Position numbers and translations under genes: made by a program
Notes under the pieces: generated by a model
What the model was told of the DNA's origin: nothing
The model's input: the letters and a program-made list of their open reading frames with translations, nothing else
The model's database searches: none
Shown here: piece after piece, positions 8,556-36,248 of the stretch
Numbering within the stretch: the first letter of the stretch is position 1
Layout: every line of letters starts with the position of its first letter
NCBI RefSeq assembly: GCF_901447155.2
Contig: NZ_LR588415.1
Location: 1-44,883, forward strand
Source: Peptoniphilus catoniae
Lineage (GTDB): Bacteria; Bacillota; Clostridia; Tissierellales; Peptoniphilaceae
DNA length: 44,883 nucleotides
Direction: 5' to 3'

Positions 8556-8575
8556 AGTTCCGAGAAATCGGAACT
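8556..8575 (+). promoter_or_regulatory. Hairpin / inverted repeat in the hutH-like leader
   Basis: AGTTCCGA-GAAA-TCGGAACT is a perfect 8-bp stem closed by a GNRA-type loop. It lies just before the ribosome binding site of the HutH-like gene. It is followed by TATATTTTT, so it could act as an attenuator or a protein-binding site. The rest of 8443-8596 shows no clear promoter. Confidence 0.45.
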
Positions 8576-8596
8576 ATATTTTTAGAGAGGTGAAAA

Positions 8597-10084
8597 ATGA
8601 AACTTAATAAAACTTTAACAATTGAAGAAGCTATGGCAGTAGTAAGGTTTAATGAAGAACTTGAATTTTCATCTGAAGCAATAGAGAGAGTAAAAAGGTG
8701 TACAGGCCTAATAGAGGATTCCATTAAAAAAAATATACCTATGTATGGAGTTACTACAGGCCTTGGTGCCAACAGCACAAAAAATATTTCACAGGAAGAT
8801 ACAAAAATTTATCAGGAGAAGATTCTCCAAAGCCATGCGGTATCTGTGGGAGAGCCCATTAAGAAGAAAGAGTTAAGAGCAATTCTTCTTATGATTATAT
8901 TAAACGGTATTAAGGGTTATAGTGGAGTAAGAATTGAAACTCTTGAATTAATAAGAAATATTTTAAATAAGGATCTTTACATATTTGTTCCGGGCTCAGG
9001 CTCTGTAGGCTATCTTTCTTTAGAGGCTCACATAGGACTTGCACTTATAGGACAGGGTAAAATCTACAAGGACGGAAAATTTGAAAGCTCTAAAGAAGTT
9101 TTAGAAGAAAACGGTTTAAAACCTTTAGACTTATCTTATAAGGAAGCCTTGTTTTTAATATCAGGAACTACATGTGTAACGGGATATGGACTTATAGCTG
9201 TTTATGATGCAAAGAATTTGCTTAAAAACTTTGAAATTTTGTCAGCTATGGAGATTGAGGTTCAGGAAGCTACAACAAGACTTTTAGATAAAAGGCTTAT
9301 GGAGGTAAGAAGTCAAGTTGAGCAAAGAGAAGTAGCTGATAGTATTTCAGATATGCTCAAGGATTCAGAAATTTGCAAAAAATATTATTATGAAAAACTA
9401 CAGGATGCTCTTTCCATAAGATGTATACCTCAACTTATAGGCCCTGTTAAAAAGAAAATAAATGAAGCTGAGTTAACAGTGCTTAGAGAAATGGATTCCT
9501 GTACCGATAACCCTATTATCTATGAAGAAAATGGAGAGGTGGATGTTATTTCAGGCTGCAATCCCGACTCTTCTTATATAGGTCTTGAAATGGATTGCCT
9601 TTCAATTGCCTTAACCATGCTTGGAAAAATGAGTGACAGAAGAACCTTTAGGCTTCTTGATGAAAAGCTTTCAAATAAGCCTGCCTTTCTTGTAGAAAAT
9701 TCAGGTGCCAACTCAGGTCTTATGATTACTCAATACACTCAAGCGGGACTTTTAAATGAAATGAAGATAAATGCAACTTCTGGAGTTATAGATTCCATAC
9801 CCACTTGTGCAAATCAAGAGGACTATGTATCTATGGGATTTAATTCTTCAAAGAAGGTCTTAAAGCAAATTGAGAATTTAAATTATATATTGGCTATAGA
9901 GCTTTTATGTATCTATGAAGCTAATTTCTTCGTTGATCCGACTTTAAAAAGAGCGAGTCTAAGTCAAAGAGTTTATGATAAATTAAATTTTGTTCCAAGA
10001 CTTAGGGAAGACTTCAAGCTGCACCCATACATTGAAAAAATAAGTGAAATTCTAAAGGATGGAGAGTTAATAAATTTAATATAG
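8597..10084 (+). CDS. Aromatic amino acid lyase (HutH) family protein lacking the MIO triad
   Basis: A 495-residue protein that follows histidine ammonia-lyase along its whole length: MYGVTTGLGA (49-58), QSHA (78-81), QDxxSIRCIPQ (269-279), FLVENSGANSG (364-374) and CANQEDYVSMG (404-414). In the family, Ala-Ser-Gly in GSVG-ASG-DLAPLAH cyclises into the catalytic MIO group. Here the segment reads GSVGYLSLEAH (135-145), exactly three residues shorter, so the triad is absent. Against Pseudomonas putida HutH, Asn195 becomes S189, Tyr280 becomes L272 and Phe329 becomes P323, while Tyr53 (Y50), His83 (H80), Arg283 (R275) and Glu414 (E408) are kept. Normal MIO-dependent deamination is therefore unlikely. 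The frame is intact, arguing against a decayed gene. No hutU, hutI or hutG lies nearby. Start ATG with GAGAGG. Confidence 0.88.
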   Translation: MKLNKTLTIEEAMAVVRFNEELEFSSEAIERVKRCTGLIEDSIKKNIPMYGVTTGLGANSTKNISQEDTKIYQEKILQSHAVSVGEPIKKKELRAILLMIILNGIKGYSGVRIETLELIRNILNKDLYIFVPGSGSVGYLSLEAHIGLALIGQGKIYKDGKFESSKEVLEENGLKPLDLSYKEALFLISGTTCVTGYGLIAVYDAKNLLKNFEILSAMEIEVQEATTRLLDKRLMEVRSQVEQREVADSISDMLKDSEICKKYYYEKLQDALSIRCIPQLIGPVKKKINEAELTVLREMDSCTDNPIIYEENGEVDVISGCNPDSSYIGLEMDCLSIALTMLGKMSDRRTFRLLDEKLSNKPAFLVENSGANSGLMITQYTQAGLLNEMKINATSGVIDSIPTCANQEDYVSMGFNSSKKVLKQIENLNYILAIELLCIYEANFFVDPTLKRASLSQRVYDKLNFVPRLREDFKLHPYIEKISEILKDGELINLI

Positions 10085-27957: not shown

Positions 27958-29097
27958 GTGATATTTTTTGAAACATTATCAGGAATTTTGGGCGAGTCCG
28001 GATTTGCCGGCTTGACTTGGCAAAATTGTGTAATGTTCTTAGTTTCCTTTGTATTGTTGTATTTGGCGATTAAAAAAGAATTTGAGCCTCTATTACTGTT
28101 ACCTATAGCTTTCGGTATGATGCTTTCAAATTTACCTGCAGCAAATCTTATGCTTGAAACTGAACCCTGGTATAGTCAAGGGGTACTAAGAATAATATAT
28201 GGTGGAGTTAAGTCAAACCTCTTCCCATGTCTAATATTTATGGGAGTAGGTTCAATGACTGACTTTGGACCTCTTATAGCTAATCCTATATCATTACTTT
28301 TAGGATCAGCCGCACAATTTGGTATATATATAGCTTTTATGGTTGCCATTGCACTTGGATTTACGCCTCAAGAAGCGGCAGCTATAGGAATTATAGGTGG
28401 AGCTGACGGTCCTACAGCGATTTATGTAACAAACTCTTTAGCACCTCAACTACTTGCACCTATAGCGGTAGCTGCATATTCATATATGGCACTTATTCCG
28501 CTAATTCAACCGCCTATTATGAAGGCTCTTACTACAGAAAAAGAACGTGAAACTAAAATGGTTGCATTAAGACCTGTATCTAAAGCTGAAAAAGTAGTAT
28601 TTCCTGTAGTTGTAGTTTTATTTACAGCTTTACTTCTACCTTCAGTTGCACCTCTTTTAGGTCTTTTGATGCTTGGAAACTTATTTAAAGAATCAGGAGT
28701 AACAGCAAGACTTTCAGATACTGCGCAAAACGCTTTAATGAATATAGTAACTATTATGCTTGGTACAACTGTAGGAGCAACTGCAAATGGAGAAATTTTC
28801 TTATCTTTATCAACTATTAAGATAATCCTTTTAGGACTTATGGCTTTCTCATTTGCAACAGTTGGAGGAGTTGTATTCGGTAAGATTTTATACTATGTAA
28901 CCGGAGGAAAAATCAACCCTCTTATCGGTTCCGCAGGAGTATCTGCAGTACCTATGGCAGCAAGAGTGTCACAAGTTGAAGGTAGAAAATATAATCCTAC
29001 CAACTTCTTACTAATGCATGCCATGGGACCAAACGTAGCAGGAGTTATCGGTTCTGCAGTTGCAGCCGGTGTATTTCTGATTATGTTCGGAGGCTGA
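27958..29097 (+). CDS. gcdB: Sodium-pumping glutaconyl-CoA decarboxylase beta subunit
   Basis: A 379-residue polytopic membrane protein of the OadB/MmdB/GcdB family. It decarboxylates carboxybiotin and exports Na+. Signature segments are visible: [20 protein letters not shown] near residues 91-110, then [16 protein letters not shown] (about 143-158), the conserved sodium-site region, and in the C-terminal part [14 protein letters not shown] and [19 protein letters not shown]. About ten helices. The start is GTG at 27958 with TTAGGAGG. It follows the biotin carrier by 20 nt. Its activity turns the free energy of glutaconyl-CoA decarboxylation into a sodium gradient. Confidence 0.96.
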
Positions 29098-29108
29098 TTA
29101 AGATTATG

Positions 29109-29139
29109 ACAATTGGAAATCCTTTGGGTTTCCAATTGT
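29109..29139 (+). promoter_or_regulatory. Hairpin between gcdB and gctA, weak terminator or processing site
   Basis: ACAATTGGAAA (29109-29119) and TTTCCAATTGT (29129-29139) form a perfect 11-bp stem with a 9-nt loop. The bases after it (TTATGTATATAA) are not a proper T run, so it may act as a partial terminator, an RNA-processing site or an mRNA stabiliser. Confidence 0.55.
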
Positions 29140-29152
29140 TTATGTATATAAT
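29124..29152 (+). promoter_or_regulatory. Candidate internal promoter before gctA
   Basis: TTGGGT (29124-29129), a 17-nt spacer and TATAAT (29147-29152) lie 47 nt before the gctA start. The -35 falls within the loop and right arm of the hairpin described above. Confidence 0.4.
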
Positions 29153-29198
29153 ATAAATACAAGGTAAATAAATTTATGAGATATAAGGAGGCATTATC

Positions 29199-30161
29199 TT
29201 GAGTAAAATTTATAGTTTAAAAGATGCTATAAGTAAATTCGTTGAGGACGGAGATGTAATGTCATTTGGCGGCTTTACAACTAACAGAAAACCATATGCT
29301 GCAGTATATGAAATTCTACGTCAAGGCAAAAAAGACTTTATAGCTGAAGCAGGTCCTGCAGGTGGAGATTGGGACATGTTAATAGGTGAAGACAGAGTTC
29401 TTGCCTACATAAACTGCTACACTGCAAACTCAGGCTATACAAACGTATCAAGAAGATTTAGAAAACACATTGAAGAAGGAAAGATACTTTTTGAAGACTA
29501 TTCACAAGACGTTGAAATGCTTAGACTTCATGCAGCATCTTTAGGACTTCCTTATCTTCCGGTAAAACTTATGATGGGAACAGGTCTTACTGAAGAATGG
29601 GGTATTTCAAGAGAAGAAAGAGAAAAAATCGACAAACTTCCTAACGAAAAATTTGTAGAAGTTGAAAACCCCTTTAAAAAGGGAGACAAGGTTATAGCTT
29701 GTCCGGTTCCTGTAATTGATACAGCAATAATTCACGTTCAAGTTGCTTCACCGGATGGAACTTGCAGAATTATCGGCGATGAATTCCACGATGTTGATAT
29801 AGCTGTTGCAGCAAGAAAGACAATTGTTACTTGCGAAGAGCTTGTAAGCAACGAAGAAATAAGACGTGAGCCTACTAAGAACTCAATTCCTGCATTTTGC
29901 GTAGATGCAGTTGTTCATGCTCCATACGGTGCTCACCCTTCACAATGCTATGACTACTACGATTATGATGCTGACTTCTTTAAAATGTACAACGTTGTAA
30001 GTAAAGGCGACGAAGACTTTAAAAAATTTGTTAAAGAGTGGGTTTATGATGTAGAAGACCACGAAGCATACCTAAACAAACTTGGAGCAACAAGACTTAT
30101 TGACCTTAAGCCCGTACCGGGATTCGGATATGCTACAAATGTCCTAAAGGAGGGTAAATAA
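29199..30161 (+). CDS. gctA: Glutaconate CoA-transferase subunit A
   Basis: A 320-residue class I CoA-transferase alpha subunit. The glycine-rich GDVMSFGGFTTNRKPYAAV near the N terminus, EAGPAGGDWDMLIGE and GTCRIIGDEFHDVDIAVAA are typical of GctA. With GctB it moves CoA from acetyl-CoA (or glutaconyl-CoA) to 2-hydroxyglutarate, activating it for dehydration. Length is the same as the Acidaminococcus fermentans subunit (about 320). The start is TTG at 29199 behind AAGGAGG. The gctB start follows two bases after its stop, so the two subunits are coupled. Confidence 0.95.
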   Translation: MSKIYSLKDAISKFVEDGDVMSFGGFTTNRKPYAAVYEILRQGKKDFIAEAGPAGGDWDMLIGEDRVLAYINCYTANSGYTNVSRRFRKHIEEGKILFEDYSQDVEMLRLHAASLGLPYLPVKLMMGTGLTEEWGISREEREKIDKLPNEKFVEVENPFKKGDKVIACPVPVIDTAIIHVQVASPDGTCRIIGDEFHDVDIAVAARKTIVTCEELVSNEEIRREPTKNSIPAFCVDAVVHAPYGAHPSQCYDYYDYDADFFKMYNVVSKGDEDFKKFVKEWVYDVEDHEAYLNKLGATRLIDLKPVPGFGYATNVLKEGK

Positions 30162-30163
30162 TA

Positions 30164-30958
30164 ATGGCTAATTACAAAAACTATACCAACAAGGAAATGC
30201 AAGCTGTTACTATTGCTAGACAAATTGAAAACGATCAAGTTGTAATAGTAGGAACGGGACTTCCTTTAATCGGAGCATCAGTTGCAAAAAGAGCTTATGC
30301 ACCTGATTGCTTTATAATAGTGGAAAGCGGTCTTATGGACTGTAATCCTATAGAAGTACCAAGATCAGTTGGAGACAACAGATTTATGGCTCATTGTGCA
30401 GTTCAATGGCCAAACATCAGATTTATAGGCTTTGAAGCTTGTGAATATCAACATGACAAAAAGAGAATGATCGCTTTTATCGGCGGAGCACAAATTGACC
30501 CCTATGGAAATGTAAACTCAACAATTATAGGAGATTATCACCATCCTACTACAAGATTTACAGGTTCAGGCGGAGCAAACGGTATTGCAACTTATGTAAA
30601 TACTATAATTATGATGCAACACGAAAAAAGAAGATTTATAGAAAAAGTTGACTACATTACTTCTCCAGGTTGGATGGACGGCCCCGGAGGAAGAGAAAGA
30701 GCAGGACTTCCAGGAAATGTTGGACCTCAAATGGTAGTAACTGACAAGGGAATTTTAAAGTTTGATGAAGAAACTAAGAAAATGTATCTTGCAGGATATT
30801 ATCCAACTTCAAGCCCTGAAGACGTACTTGAAAATACAGGATTTGATCTAGATGTTTCAAAAGCTGTATTACTTGAAGAACCGGAAGAAGAAGTAATTAA
30901 ACTTATAAGAGAAGAAATCGACCCGGGACAAGCTTTTATTAAAATCCCTAAGGAATAA
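30164..30958 (+). CDS. gctB: Glutaconate CoA-transferase subunit B
   Basis: A 264-residue class I CoA-transferase beta subunit. The catalytic glutamate that forms the enzyme-CoA thioester is E54 in IIVESGLMD, the same number as in the A. fermentans enzyme. The VVIVGTGLPLIGASVAKRAY segment and the FTGSGGANGIATYVNTIIMM loop are also typical. It works with GctA as an octamer in the cytoplasm. ATG with GGAGGGT, 2 nt after gctA and 13 nt before gcdA. Confidence 0.96.
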   Translation: MANYKNYTNKEMQAVTIARQIENDQVVIVGTGLPLIGASVAKRAYAPDCFIIVESGLMDCNPIEVPRSVGDNRFMAHCAVQWPNIRFIGFEACEYQHDKKRMIAFIGGAQIDPYGNVNSTIIGDYHHPTTRFTGSGGANGIATYVNTIIMMQHEKRRFIEKVDYITSPGWMDGPGGRERAGLPGNVGPQMVVTDKGILKFDEETKKMYLAGYYPTSSPEDVLENTGFDLDVSKAVLLEEPEEEVIKLIREEIDPGQAFIKIPKE

Positions 30959-30971
30959 TAAAGGAGATAAT

Positions 30972-32750
30972 ATGAGCAACTATTCAATGAATTCATATTT
31001 TAAAAATATGCCGGTTATTGGTCAACCGTTAAAACAATCAGACCAACTAAATTCATTTTATGCTGAAAACATTGAGCAAATAACAAAAATAGAAAGAGAA
31101 ATTCAAGAGCTTATAGCACAGGCACAAGCAGCAGGAAAGCCTGATGAAAAGGTTAATGAAAGAGGAGAATGGACAGCACTTCAACGTCTATATGAACTTG
31201 TTGATGAAGGAACATGGTGCCCTTTAAACTCCCTATTTAACCCAAGAGAAAACGAGAATGGTTCAACAGGTATTGTTAAGGGACTTGGAAGAATTAACGG
31301 CAAGTGGGCAATGATTATTGCATCAGATAACAAAAAACTTGCAGGAGCATGGGTTCCGGGACAAGCTGAAAGCTTACTTCGTGCATCAGATGTGGCAAAA
31401 AGACTTAGAATACCTCTAGTATATGTTTTAAACTGCTCAGGTGTTAAGCTTGACGTTCAAGAAGAGGTTTATCCAAATAGAAGAGGAGGAGGAACTCCTT
31501 TCTATAGGAACTCTGAGCTTAACCAATTGGGAATTCCTGTAATAGTAGGAATTTACGGTACAAACCCTGCAGGTGGCGGATACCACTCAATTTCACCTAC
31601 TATCCTTATAGCACATAAGGATGCCAATATGGCAGTAGGAGGAGCAGGAATACTTGGCGGTATGAATCCTAAGGGATATATAGATGAAGAAGGAGCTAAC
31701 CAAATAGCAGATCAAACAATGAATGCTAAAAAGGTAGCACCTCCGGGATCAGTTGGTGTTCACTTTGCACAAACAGGATTCTTTAGAGAAGTTTATGTAG
31801 ATGAAGATGGAATGATTGAAGGTATTAAAAAATATGTTGATATGCTTCCTTCATATAACCCTGAATTTTTCAGAGTAGATGATCCTAAGGCACCTATTTA
31901 TGATGCAAATGACATGTATTCAATTATCCCTGCAAATCCTAAAAAAACCTATGATATATATGATGTAATATCAAGACTTTTTGACGGTTCTGAATTTATG
32001 GAATACAAAAAAGGATATGGACCTGAAATGGTAACAGGACTTGCAAAGGTAAATGGACTACTTGTAGGTGTAGTTGCAAACGTTCAAGGATTCTTAATGA
32101 AATATCCTGAATATAAGGAAAATGCAATAGGTATTGGCGGAAAGCTTTACAGACAAGGCTTGTTAAAAATGAACGAGTTTGTAACCTACTGTAGCAGAGA
32201 CAGATTACCTATAGTTTGGTTACAGGATACTACAGGAATTGATGTAGGAGATGACGCTGAAAGAGCTGAACTTTTAGGACTTGGACAATCTCTAATTTAT
32301 TCAATTCAAAATTCTGACATACCTCAACTTGAAATTACCATGAGAAAAGGTACTGCAGCAGCTCACTATGTACTTGGAGGACCTCAAGGCAATGACACCA
32401 ACGTCTTCAGTTTAGGACTTGCTACAACTGAAATTAACGTAATGAATGCTGAAACTGCAGCGGTTGCAATGTATTCAAGAAGACTTGCAAAAGATAAAAA
32501 GGCAGGAAAAGATCTACAACCTACTATAGATAAAATGAATGAGCTTATTCAAAAATACATTGAAAAATCAAGTCCGAAATACTGTGCACAAGCAGGTATG
32601 GTAGACGAAATTGTAAACATGAATATGATGAGAAATTATATAATGGCATTTACAGAAAGCTGCTACCAAAATCCTGAGTCAATTTGTCCGGTACATCAAA
32701 TGATTTTACCTAGAGTAATTCGTGACTTTGACAATGTTTTTAAGAAATAA
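30972..32750 (+). CDS. gcdA: Glutaconyl-CoA decarboxylase alpha subunit (carboxytransferase)
   Basis: A 592-residue carboxyltransferase with two crotonase-like halves (about 50-300 and 310-580). It transfers the carboxyl group of glutaconyl-CoA to biotin, giving crotonyl-CoA. The N-terminal part has the GRINGKWAMIIASDNKKLAG and NPAGGGYHSISP segments; the C-terminal half has GVVANVQGF, LQDTTGIDVGDDAE and MRKGTAAAHYVLGGPQ. Length matches GcdA of A. fermentans (about 587). It lies after gctAB and apart from gcdDCB, so decarboxylase and CoA-transferase genes are interleaved. ATG with AAAGGAG. A terminator follows. Confidence 0.96.
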   Translation: MSNYSMNSYFKNMPVIGQPLKQSDQLNSFYAENIEQITKIEREIQELIAQAQAAGKPDEKVNERGEWTALQRLYELVDEGTWCPLNSLFNPRENENGSTGIVKGLGRINGKWAMIIASDNKKLAGAWVPGQAESLLRASDVAKRLRIPLVYVLNCSGVKLDVQEEVYPNRRGGGTPFYRNSELNQLGIPVIVGIYGTNPAGGGYHSISPTILIAHKDANMAVGGAGILGGMNPKGYIDEEGANQIADQTMNAKKVAPPGSVGVHFAQTGFFREVYVDEDGMIEGIKKYVDMLPSYNPEFFRVDDPKAPIYDANDMYSIIPANPKKTYDIYDVISRLFDGSEFMEYKKGYGPEMVTGLAKVNGLLVGVVANVQGFLMKYPEYKENAIGIGGKLYRQGLLKMNEFVTYCSRDRLPIVWLQDTTGIDVGDDAERAELLGLGQSLIYSIQNSDIPQLEITMRKGTAAAHYVLGGPQGNDTNVFSLGLATTEINVMNAETAAVAMYSRRLAKDKKAGKDLQPTIDKMNELIQKYIEKSSPKYCAQAGMVDEIVNMNMMRNYIMAFTESCYQNPESICPVHQMILPRVIRDFDNVFKK

Positions 32751-32771
32751 AAAACAATTAAAGACAACAGT

Positions 32772-32800
32772 AAGGCAGGGTAACCCTGCCTTCTTGTTTA
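32772..32800 (+). terminator. Terminator after gcdA
   Basis: AAGGCAGGG (32772-32780), loop TAA, CCCTGCCTT (32784-32792) form a strong stem followed by CTTGTTT. The tail is short in T, so read-through into hgdC is possible. Confidence 0.7.
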
Positions 32801-32832
32801 TATAAAGAATATTTAGCTTAAATCCCATTATT

Positions 32833-32861
32833 TTGACTTTTAAAGCAATTAATAGTACAAT
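32833..32861 (+). promoter_or_regulatory. Promoter of hgdC-hgdA-hgdB
   Basis: TTGACT (32833-32838), a 17-nt spacer and TACAAT (32856-32861) form a good vegetative promoter about 48 nt before the hgdC start. Confidence 0.75.
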
Positions 32862-32909
32862 TAATGTGTAGGTTTATTTATAAAAATATTAATATAAAGA
32901 GGTTTTTTA

Positions 32910-33722
32910 ATGGCAGAAACTATATACACTATGGGGGTGGACGTAGGATCCACTGCGTCTAAAGGCGTAATACTAAAGGACGGTAGAGAAATTGTAGCCA
33001 ATTCCGTAATTGATGTCGGTGCAGGTACATCCGGCCCGTCAAGAGCCATAAGCGAAGTACTGGAAAAAGCAGGATTAAAAATTGAGGATATCGATTTTAT
33101 AACTGCAACAGGTTACGGAAGAAATTCCCTTGAAGAAGCGGACTTTCAAATGTCTGAGCTTTCATGTCATGCAAAGGGTGCGTATTTCTTGTTTCCAAGA
33201 GTGCATACTATAATAGATATAGGCGGACAAGATGCCAAAGCTTTAAAAATCGGGGAAGGCGGAGTTCTTGAAAACTTTGTTATGAATGACAAGTGTGCGG
33301 CGGGAACCGGAAGGTTCTTAGATGTAATAGCAAGAGTACTTGAAGTAGATGTATCAGATCTTGAAAAGCTTGACAGTAAATCTGATAAAGATGTTACCAT
33401 ATCATCAACTTGTACAGTATTTGCAGAGTCTGAAGTAATATCACAACTTGCACAGGGTACTAAAATTGAAGATATAGTAAGAGGAATACACTCAGCTATA
33501 GCAAGTAGAGTAGGTTCCCTTGCAAAAAGAGTGGGAATAAAAGATGATGTAATTATGACAGGAGGAGTTGCTCTTAACGGAGGTATGGTTAGAGCACTTG
33601 AAAAAAACATAGGACATAAGATTTACACATCACCCTACTGTCAGTTAAATGGTGCTTTGGGGGCTGCGATATTTGCTTATCAGAAGATTCAAAACAATAT
33701 GAGAAGAGCGGCAGCTAAATAG
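32910..33722 (+). CDS. hgdC: 2-hydroxyglutaryl-CoA dehydratase activator (component A, archerase)
   Basis: A 270-residue ASKHA-fold ATPase. The dimer holds one [4Fe-4S] cluster and uses ATP to push a low-potential electron into the dehydratase. The nucleotide-binding start [12 protein letters not shown] (9-20), the IDIGGQDAK segment (102-110) and the [12 protein letters not shown] segment are clear. The two cluster cysteines appear as C129 ([11 protein letters not shown]) and C168 ([12 protein letters not shown]), near the C127/C166 positions of A. fermentans HgdC. ATG with AGAGG. First gene of hgdCAB, 39 nt before hgdA. Confidence 0.96.
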
Positions 33723-33761
33723 TAAGTAATTGTTTGTTATATAAATATTTAGGAGGAAAAA

Positions 33762-35087
33762 ATGGCTGAAAAAATATTACAGAAGATACCTGGGAAAAAA
33801 CCCAGACCAATAGAAGGACATAAGCCTGCGGCACAAGTTCTTCGTAGTGTAGTAGATGCAGTATATGGAGATGCTTGGGATGCTAAGCAAAGAGGAGAAT
33901 TAGTAGGATGGTCATCATCAAAATTCCCTATTGAACTTGCAAAAGCATTTGATCTTCAAGTAGTATATCCTGAAAATCATGCTGCAACAACAGCGGCTAA
34001 AAAAGACGGTTTAAGACTATGTCAAGCTGCAGAAGATATGGGTTATGACAATGATATTTGTGGCTATGCAAGAATATCACTTGCCTTTGCAATGGGAGAA
34101 CCGACAGACTCAAGAAAAATGCCTCAACCTGACTTTGTACTTTGCTGTAACAACATTTGCAACATGATGACTAAATGGTATGAAAACATAGCAAGAATGC
34201 ACAACATTCCTATGATTATGATTGATATACCTTTCCAAAACACAATTCATGTACCTGAAGAAAAAGTTGACTATTTGGTAGGCCAATTTGAATATGCAAT
34301 TAAGCAATTGGAAGAACTTACAGGCAAAAAATTTGATGAAAAGAAATTCCAAGATGCTTGTGATATAGCAAACAGAACAGCAGCAGCATGGCTTAAAGCT
34401 TGCTCATATATGAAGTATAAACCATCTCCTCTATCAGGATTTGACCTATTTAACCACATGGCTGATATAGTAGCTGCAAGATGTGATGTTAGAGCTGCAG
34501 AAGGATTCGAACTTCTATCAGAAGAATTTGAACAATCAGTAAGAGAGGGAACATCAACTTGGGAATATCCGGAAGAACACAGAATATTGTTTGAAGGAAT
34601 ACCTTGCTGGCCTGCACTTAGACCATTATTTGAACCATTAAAGAACAATGGAGTTAACGTAACCGCAGTTGTTTATGCTCCTGCTTTCGGATTTAGATAT
34701 AACGGAGTAAGAGAAATGGCTGCAGCTTACTGTAAAGCACCATGTTCAGTATGTATAGAAGACGGTGTAGAATGGAGAGAAACCATGGCTAAGGAAAACG
34801 GAATAAGCGGTGCCTTAGTTAACTACAATAGATCATGTAAACCTTGGTCAGGAGCAATGCCTGAAATAGAAAGAAGATGGAAAGAAGACTTAGATATTCC
34901 GGTAGTTCACTTTGACGGGGACCAAGCGGACGAAAGAAACTTCTCCGCAGAACAATACAACACGAGAGTTCAAGGTTTAGTAGAAATTATGAATGAAAGA
35001 AAAGCTGAAAGAGAAGCAAAAAGCGAAGAAATCTATACTAACTTTGAAAACACAAAAGAAACAGATTGGTCAAAGCAAACAATATAA
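33762..35087 (+). CDS. hgdA: 2-hydroxyglutaryl-CoA dehydratase subunit A
   Basis: A 441-residue subunit of component D, the radical dehydratase that removes water from (R)-2-hydroxyglutaryl-CoA to give glutaconyl-CoA. The segments GWSSSKFPIELAKAFDLQVVYPE, CGYARISLAF, LCCNNICNMM and a cysteine-bearing VNYNRSCKPWSGAMPEIERR are characteristic of the HgdA/BcrC-related family, and several Cys are placed to hold a [4Fe-4S] cluster. It is somewhat shorter than the A. fermentans protein, with no visible internal gap. ATG with TAGGAGG; hgdB begins 12 nt after its stop. Confidence 0.95.
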   Translation: MAEKILQKIPGKKPRPIEGHKPAAQVLRSVVDAVYGDAWDAKQRGELVGWSSSKFPIELAKAFDLQVVYPENHAATTAAKKDGLRLCQAAEDMGYDNDICGYARISLAFAMGEPTDSRKMPQPDFVLCCNNICNMMTKWYENIARMHNIPMIMIDIPFQNTIHVPEEKVDYLVGQFEYAIKQLEELTGKKFDEKKFQDACDIANRTAAAWLKACSYMKYKPSPLSGFDLFNHMADIVAARCDVRAAEGFELLSEEFEQSVREGTSTWEYPEEHRILFEGIPCWPALRPLFEPLKNNGVNVTAVVYAPAFGFRYNGVREMAAAYCKAPCSVCIEDGVEWRETMAKENGISGALVNYNRSCKPWSGAMPEIERRWKEDLDIPVVHFDGDQADERNFSAEQYNTRVQGLVEIMNERKAEREAKSEEIYTNFENTKETDWSKQTI

Positions 35088-35099
35088 GTGAGGGATAAA

Positions 35100-36248
35100 A
35101 TGAGCGAAATTAGAGAATTGGTAGATCAGCTAAATCATATTGCTGAAAATCAAAGAGAACAAATAGATAAATATCTTGCAGCAGGCAAGAAATGTGTTGG
35201 AGTATTTCCTTATTATGCACCTGAAGAAATTATATATGCAGGTGGAATGGTACCAATCGGAGTATGGGGCGGACAAGGACCTATAGACCTTGCAAAGAAC
35301 TATTTCCCTACATTCTATTACTCACTGGCATTAAGATGTTTGGAAATGGCACTGGACGGATCCTTAGACGGACTATCAGCATCAATGCTTACAACTCTTG
35401 ATGATACATTAAGACCTCTTTCACAAAACTATAAGGTATCAGCAGGAAGAAAAATCCCTATGGTATTCCTTAACCATGCACAACACAGAAAAGAAGAATT
35501 TGGTAGAGTTTACAATGCTAAAATATTTAATGAAGCAAAAGAAAGACTTGAAGAAGTTTGCGATGTAAAAATTACAGATGAAGATTTAAAAGAAGCTTTT
35601 GAAGTTTATAATGAAAACAGAGCTTTAAAAAGAGAGTTCATTAAGCTTGCAGCAAGTCATCCACAAACAATAAAGGCATCAGACAGATGTAGAGTTTTAA
35701 AAGCAGGCTATCATATGCTTAAAGACGAGCATTCAGAATACCTTAAGAAAATCAACGCTATCCTAAAAGAAATGCCTGAAGAAGATTGGGACGGAGTAAA
35801 AGTAATAACATCAGGTATTATTACAGATAACCCGGGACTACTTGAAATCTTTGACCAATACAAGGTAGCTATAGTAGGAGATGACGTTTCATCAGAATCA
35901 AGAGGATTGAAGATAGATGTAGATACATCAATTGAAGATCCTATGATGGCACTTGCAGATCAATTTGCAAGAATGGACGAAGACCCGATGCTATATGACC
36001 CTGATATTTGGAAGAGACCTGCTTATGTAGTTAATCTTGCAAAAGAAAGCGGAGCAGACGGATGTCTATTATTCATGATGAACTTTAATGATACAGAAGA
36101 AATGGAATATCCTTCACTAAAGAGAGCCTTTGAAGAAGCCGGAATCCCACTAATAAAAATGGGATATGACCAACAGATGGTTGACTTCGGACAAGTTAAG
36201 ACTCAACTTGAAACATTTAACGAAATCGTTCAATTAAATAGAATGTAA
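35100..36248 (+). CDS. hgdB: 2-hydroxyglutaryl-CoA dehydratase subunit B
   Basis: A 382-residue partner of HgdA in the radical dehydratase. The N-terminal region has KKCVGVFPYYAPEEIIYAGG, typical of the subunit, followed by VWGGQGPIDLAKNYFPTFYYS. The C-terminal half contains VKVITSGIITDNPGLLEIFD and GADGCLLFMMNFNDTEEMEYP. Length agrees with known HgdB (about 380). I use the ATG at 35100, which follows GAGGG at 5-6 nt; a GTG at 35088 is in frame but lies on that ribosome binding site. It completes the route from 2-hydroxyglutarate to glutaconyl-CoA in this window. Confidence 0.95.
   Translation: MSEIRELVDQLNHIAENQREQIDKYLAAGKKCVGVFPYYAPEEIIYAGGMVPIGVWGGQGPIDLAKNYFPTFYYSLALRCLEMALDGSLDGLSASMLTTLDDTLRPLSQNYKVSAGRKIPMVFLNHAQHRKEEFGRVYNAKIFNEAKERLEEVCDVKITDEDLKEAFEVYNENRALKREFIKLAASHPQTIKASDRCRVLKAGYHMLKDEHSEYLKKINAILKEMPEEDWDGVKVITSGIITDNPGLLEIFDQYKVAIVGDDVSSESRGLKIDVDTSIEDPMMALADQFARMDEDPMLYDPDIWKRPAYVVNLAKESGADGCLLFMMNFNDTEEMEYPSLKRAFEEAGIPLIKMGYDQQMVDFGQVKTQLETFNEIVQLNRM

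Follow-up and report, generated by a model that had tools for sequence, protein, structure and literature searches.

What can a protein with the fold of histidine ammonia-lyase (HutH, HAL) do without the Ala-Ser-Gly triad from which the electrophilic MIO group is formed? The question is raised by the gene at 8597..10084 (+) of the window, the whole 44,883-nucleotide stretch of Peptoniphilus catoniae DNA analysed here. An earlier note, made from the letters alone, had described a full-length HutH-like protein with an intact frame, and this description holds. The open reading frame starts with ATG behind a likely ribosome-binding site, AGAGAGGTG at 8584..8592 (+), and runs through 495 uninterrupted codons to its stop. 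Residues 7-463 align with positions 1-464 of the 466 in the Pfam Lyase_aromatic profile (PF00221) at 467.6 bits against a cut-off of 27.3, which covers the whole domain and places the protein in the family. The HutH equivalog TIGR01225 of NCBIfam scores 427.6 bits against a cut-off of 539.15, and the protein lies far under the cut-offs of the NCBIfam HutH models. A terminator-like hairpin at 8556..8575 (+), about 20 bases 5' of the start codon, is either the end of the uppP transcript or part of a leader, and may be an attenuator; the orthologues in two related genomes, G011 and G018, are likewise preceded by stem-loop-like sequences.

Alignments to Pseudomonas putida HAL (1eb4/1b8f) confirm that the triad is gone, GSVG-ASG-DLAPLAH becoming GSVG-YLSLEAH. 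The resulting loop (codons 135-145, 8999..9031, +) is three residues shorter at the MIO site, where HutH has GSVGASGDLAPLAH. The same comparison, with residue equivalences assigned by motif, bears out the replacements and retentions that had been listed with it. Ser189 (9161..9163), Leu272 (9410..9412) and Pro323 (9563..9565), all on the + strand, take the places of Asn195, Tyr280 and Phe329. Kept are Tyr50 (Tyr53), His80 (His83), Gln269 (Gln277), Arg275 at 9419..9421 (+), the counterpart of the carboxylate-side Arg283, and Glu408 at 9818..9820 (+), the counterpart of Glu414. The Ser-His pair at codons 79-80 (8831..8836, +) corresponds to Ser82-His83 of HAL, which is named as a substrate-switch motif in work on GkHAL (PMC11432326). 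In the available text of that study, mutations at Y52, H82, N194 and E411 abolish GkHAL activity, and MIO formation fails in PpuHAL F329G. Of the features of a MIO-dependent HutH, the window protein has Ser-His and Glu414, and lacks the ASG triad, Asn195 and Tyr280.

Is this an isolated oddity? The homologue search and tree that had been proposed as a check reveal a MIO-less clade with the same shortened loop, mostly in Bacillota. Of 60 other near genomes searched, four encode relatives that share the loop GSVGYLS[LPV]E[AS]H, at 69% (G011), 50% (G018), 46% (G031) and 45% (G055) identity, and all 26 canonical loci from the same genome and the near-genome searches carry [AS]SG. A genome collection searched with the five-member alignment yielded at least 80 loci and at least 594 matching stretches, with Clostridium, Sporomusa, Blautia, Acidaminococcus, Bacillus and its relatives, Acinetobacter and others among the matches listed. 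At 88 loci (the 80 listed matches and eight further ones), the YL loop is present in 105 of the 106 lyase ORFs not pre-typed as MIO or ergothionase-like, the one exception among the matches listed being a C-terminal fragment. A further alignment covers 129 members of the family, including 93 YL-type, 28 MIO and three ergothionase rows, with two GSVAYL-loop rows assigned to a class "other"; every YL-type row in it keeps the equivalents of Tyr53, Gln277, Arg283 and Glu414. His83 is kept in 91 of the 93, and Ser or Thr precedes it in 91. The other three columns drift: at Asn195, 62 rows have Ser and 29 have Asn; at Tyr280, 83 have Leu and 8 have Tyr; and the Phe329 column is divided among Ala (30 rows), Pro (25), Cys (21) and Phe (16). 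All eight active-site positions, these three included, are kept in 28/28 MIO rows. Within the window's class, 5 of 291 genomes hold a clade member (at least 744 bits, with every other match at 570 or below), and ergothionase-type proteins co-occur with it in 3/5 genomes, versus 2/286 of the rest.

The P. catoniae genome (1.73 Mb) itself holds three PF00221 members: an ASG-bearing HutH on contig C8, the window gene on C3, and on C5 a relative of ergothionase that matches the Treponema denticola enzyme (6S7J) at 913 bits. The C5 gene lies in a cluster with a xanthine-dehydrogenase homologue, a BCCT transporter, a GntR regulator and an amidohydrolase, and profile searches place the sole BCCT and the sole urocanase of the genome in this cluster. 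The earlier remark that no other hut gene is nearby stands for the 30 of the window's 45 listed ORFs that were scanned with Pfam, but does not extend to the genome, which has its HutH on C8 and its urocanase on C5. The window gene sits between uppP and a carbon-nitrogen hydrolase gene, and neither BCCT nor hut genes occur over 8.6 kb upstream and 9.4 kb downstream of it; the window begins at the end of C3, so the upstream view is limited to those 8.6 kb. A functional link to the hydrolase was considered and found unsupported; when the neighbouring genes were clustered, the hydrolase grouped with nothing from the other loci.

Two known enzymes invite comparison. Ergothionase is a trimethylamine-lyase of HutH fold without MIO (PMC13405746), and the ergothioneine trimethylamine-lyase of T. 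denticola (6S7J) and the window protein both combine the PF00221 fold with the absence of Ala-Ser-Gly. Like the clade, ergothionase has Ser or Cys at Asn195 (Ser in the three aligned rows) and Leu at Tyr280, retains the Tyr53, His83, Arg283 and Glu414 positions, and has BCCT neighbours, in this genome and in G011. Unlike the window protein, it has a full-length loop, SSxGE[AG]DITTLSH, and keeps Phe329. The window protein falls outside the ergothionase group in the tree, and aligns at 143.7 bits to 6S7J versus 271.6 bits to an archaeal HAL. HutH in turn shares with the window protein an end-to-end alignment, the Ser-His motif and Glu414, is the nearest neighbour of the clade in the tree, and some clade operons contain HutU and HutI; it differs in having the ASG triad, Asn195, Tyr280 and Phe329, and in coexisting with the clade gene. 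The window protein is thus a member of PF00221 that is neither a MIO-dependent HutH nor, by group, an ergothionase, although it probably works like the latter.

The trees bear on whether this likeness is inherited. In a quick tree of 72 rows the clade (46 of the 47 YL rows, with L128 outside) lies within the MIO rows, and the acid-type, ergothionase-like group stands apart. A careful tree of 43 rows puts the MIO rows on one side of a branch supported at 70/57, with the YL group at 91/70. In a careful tree of 46 rows with PAL/TAL-type proteins, computed after removal of the loop columns and of the three positions that drift, the YL clade (86/92) is placed next to the HutH proteins of Bacillota (97/96). 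Ergothionase-type proteins form a separate group (100/100), and the MIO state must change twice on this tree. The long-branch rows L107_2, L128_p and L134_p were excluded from both careful trees, and the L135 lyase is included in the 46-row tree only. MIO rows form one group in 0% of 200 bootstrap trees of the 46-row set, yet an AU test on the same set does not reject a single common non-MIO group (p 0.219). Separate loss of MIO in the YL clade and in ergothionase is favoured at most.

Gene neighbourhoods point to a substrate. They were compared between 86 non-redundant clade loci and 25 canonical HutH loci. Five of the latter belong to genomes that also carry the clade, that of the window among them, and 20 come from the top of a hit list of 127 genomes. 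A BCCT transporter gene lies within 5 kb at 52/86 clade loci and at none of the 25 HutH loci (Fisher p 1e-8). The proportions are 39/53 versus 0/22 when counted by genus (by locus where that failed), 47/86 versus 0/25 within 400 bases, and 40/61 versus 0/21 at loci with complete 5 kb flanks. More than 90% of 43 aligned clade-neighbour BCCT proteins have the Trp motif WWT...W..W; in G018, a BCCT frame of 210 codons adjoins a transposase gene. Urocanase is found within 5 kb at 15/86 clade loci and is commoner at canonical HutH loci (12/25), so the link to urocanate concerns a minority of the clade. Thirteen of the 15 have no MIO lyase within the fetched locus. BCCT and urocanase occur together at 8/86 clade loci versus 0/25, and the gene order BCCT-lyase-HutU-HutI-HutG is seen for example at L081, L086 and L092, and in Halalkalibacter and Halobacillus. 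At 34 of the 86 loci no BCCT lies within 5 kb. At 17, including the window, all five of the marker genes looked for (BCCT, urocanase, HutI, xanthine dehydrogenase, MttB) are missing. Some loci have SSF or MFS carriers instead, and ABC importers are found at loci on plasmids of Klebsiella and Rhizobium; more than one substrate may therefore be served within the clade.

BCCT carriers move quaternary ammonium compounds, and urocanase consumes urocanate. The compound that links an importer of the first kind to the second enzyme would be the betaine of histidine, hercynine. MIO activates a substrate whose amino group leaves poorly; trimethylammonium is the better leaving group, and its nitrogen lacks a free electron pair for addition to MIO. 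With such a leaving group, MIO and the residues around it would be dispensable, while those that hold the imidazole and the carboxylate would be kept. These considerations suggest, with a probability of about 0.55, that the window gene encodes a MIO-free lyase of HutH fold that eliminates trimethylamine from hercynine to give urocanate. We infer the substrate, the reaction and the leaving group, the first from relatives that share 45-69% identity or are more distant still, since the gene's own neighbours are unrelated. Hercynine, the trimethylated betaine of histidine, would be imported by a BCCT carrier, trimethylamine would be eliminated by acid/base catalysis alone, and the urocanate produced would join the ordinary histidine route to glutamate. 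Import is what the genome suggests, since a profile search found no match to EgtD (PF10017) and its one BCCT is in the ergothionase cluster. The retained pair of His83 and Glu414 fits an imidazole substrate; the Glu414 column is Gln in all five PAL/TAL/aminomutase-type rows.

Could the betaine be a different one? A MIO-free trimethylamine-lyase acting on ergothioneine, a derivative of it or another aromatic amino acid betaine is unlikely, but it is the alternative with most in its favour. The BCCT link speaks for it too, and the G011 orthologue belongs to a single run of genes that also encodes ergothionase, a BCCT, a DcuC carrier and three subunits of xanthine dehydrogenase, neighbours that could mean an ergothioneine derivative in place of hercynine. 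Molybdenum-cofactor-type genes adjoin the G018 and G031 orthologues, and adjacent paralogues in Blautia and others suggest several specificities, of which the clade probably holds more than one. A described precedent is ergothioneine catabolism in the gut, which pairs ergothionase with C-S bond cleavage by a xanthine-oxidase homologue (Feng et al. 2025; PMC13405746, PMC12771579). Contig C5 resembles that pathway in keeping ergothionase-type and xanthine-oxidase-type genes together, with a BCCT; the window gene is on another contig, and the available portions of these two papers name no second MIO-less lyase. Against another betaine, ergothioneine is already served in this genome by a close ergothionase relative, the urocanase neighbours point to urocanate, and Ser-His and Glu414 are HAL-like, the PAL/TAL/aminomutase-type rows having Gln at the Glu414 column.

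Still less probable is an ammonia-lyase that handles histidine, or an N-methylated histidine, without MIO. Each tested residue on the imidazole and carboxylate sides is retained, urocanase operons without a MIO lyase occur in the clade, and a clade-type gene on a Priestia plasmid record is annotated hutH. Against this, loss of MIO formation abolishes activity in the family, as in RxPAL S153A according to the text available of PMC3903478. A HutH-type lyase is also already at hand: all five clade-bearing genomes of the class sample have a HutH with the triad, and in 16 of 16 clade-bearing genomes chosen from the 80 listed loci a PF00221 protein scores at least 624 bits, which is HutH level by score only, with triads unread. 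The BCCT carriers, too, speak for a quaternary substrate. That the protein has given up catalysis for regulation or binding would explain the loss of the triad and Asn195, but we consider it very improbable given the four residues invariant in 93/93 clade members and neighbours suited to transport and catabolism. The earlier suggestion of a maintained protein with a different chemistry or a binding role accordingly survives in its first part, and the binding role finds no support. Decay of a hutH gene, or a sequencing or assembly error, has the missing triad alone in its favour and is ruled out by the open frame, by purifying selection (dN 0.24 with saturated dS of about 3 against the G011 orthologue) and by a loop shared throughout the clade, including four relatives at 45-69% identity, which is neither chance nor sequencing error.

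If hercynine is the substrate here, how far does the chemistry extend? A widespread, misannotated family of MIO-free trimethylamine-lyases, which lost the cofactor separately from ergothionase and would break down hercynine, with paralogues perhaps acting on further aromatic betaines, is a tentative proposal to which we give slightly less than an even chance. Were it true, many genes named hutH or aromatic ammonia-lyase would do other chemistry, some of them on Klebsiella plasmids. There would be a catabolic route for hercynine, the precursor of ergothioneine, and with it a further microbial source of trimethylamine. How a lyase fold works without its built-in electrophile, possibly after two separate losses, would become testable. 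Titles and opening lines of abstracts listed by searches of open-licence literature describe neither a hercynine lyase nor a MIO-less HutH clade; subscription journals may report the reaction.

Several further observations concern the fate of the products and the breadth of the family. Genes of the MttB family (trimethylamine methyltransferase superfamily) lie near clade members at L103 (8565-14673), L104, L095 and L181 and could take up released trimethylamine; a profile search of the P. catoniae genome for MttB (PF06253) gave no match. At 27958-36248 the window encodes an OAD beta subunit, a CoA-transferase pair, a carboxyltransferase, a BadF/BcrA-type ATPase and two HGD-D proteins, a set that fits glutamate fermentation via 2-hydroxyglutarate and would be a plausible sink for urocanate-derived glutamate. 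Clade paralogues stand side by side at some loci, in Blautia and others. Five Peribacillus members (L109, L110, L112, L116, L118) lie beside an MFS carrier and a DAO-type FAD oxidoreductase, with 5-oxoprolinase-type genes (LamB/YcsF, carboxyltransferase domains) and a D-glutamate cyclase family gene in the same set of loci, and are possibly a sub-clade with another substrate. On a Klebsiella grimontii plasmid (L125, 3992-5524), a gene with the annotation "aromatic amino acid ammonia-lyase" encodes another loop of MIO-less type, GSVGYLIATAH, and adjoins hutU, hutC, a gene of the HutD family and an ABC importer. This gene matches 179 plasmid records at E < 1e-120, 162 of them from Klebsiella, with loops read in L125 and Rhizobium L127 only. 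Full-length loops with GAAD, GESD or GEAD in place of GASG occur at L132 (953-2458), L133 (965-2461), L134 (965-2500) and L107 (2520-4100), whose products are possibly further MIO-free lyases; the L132 gene adjoins one for a glycine-betaine ABC binding protein.
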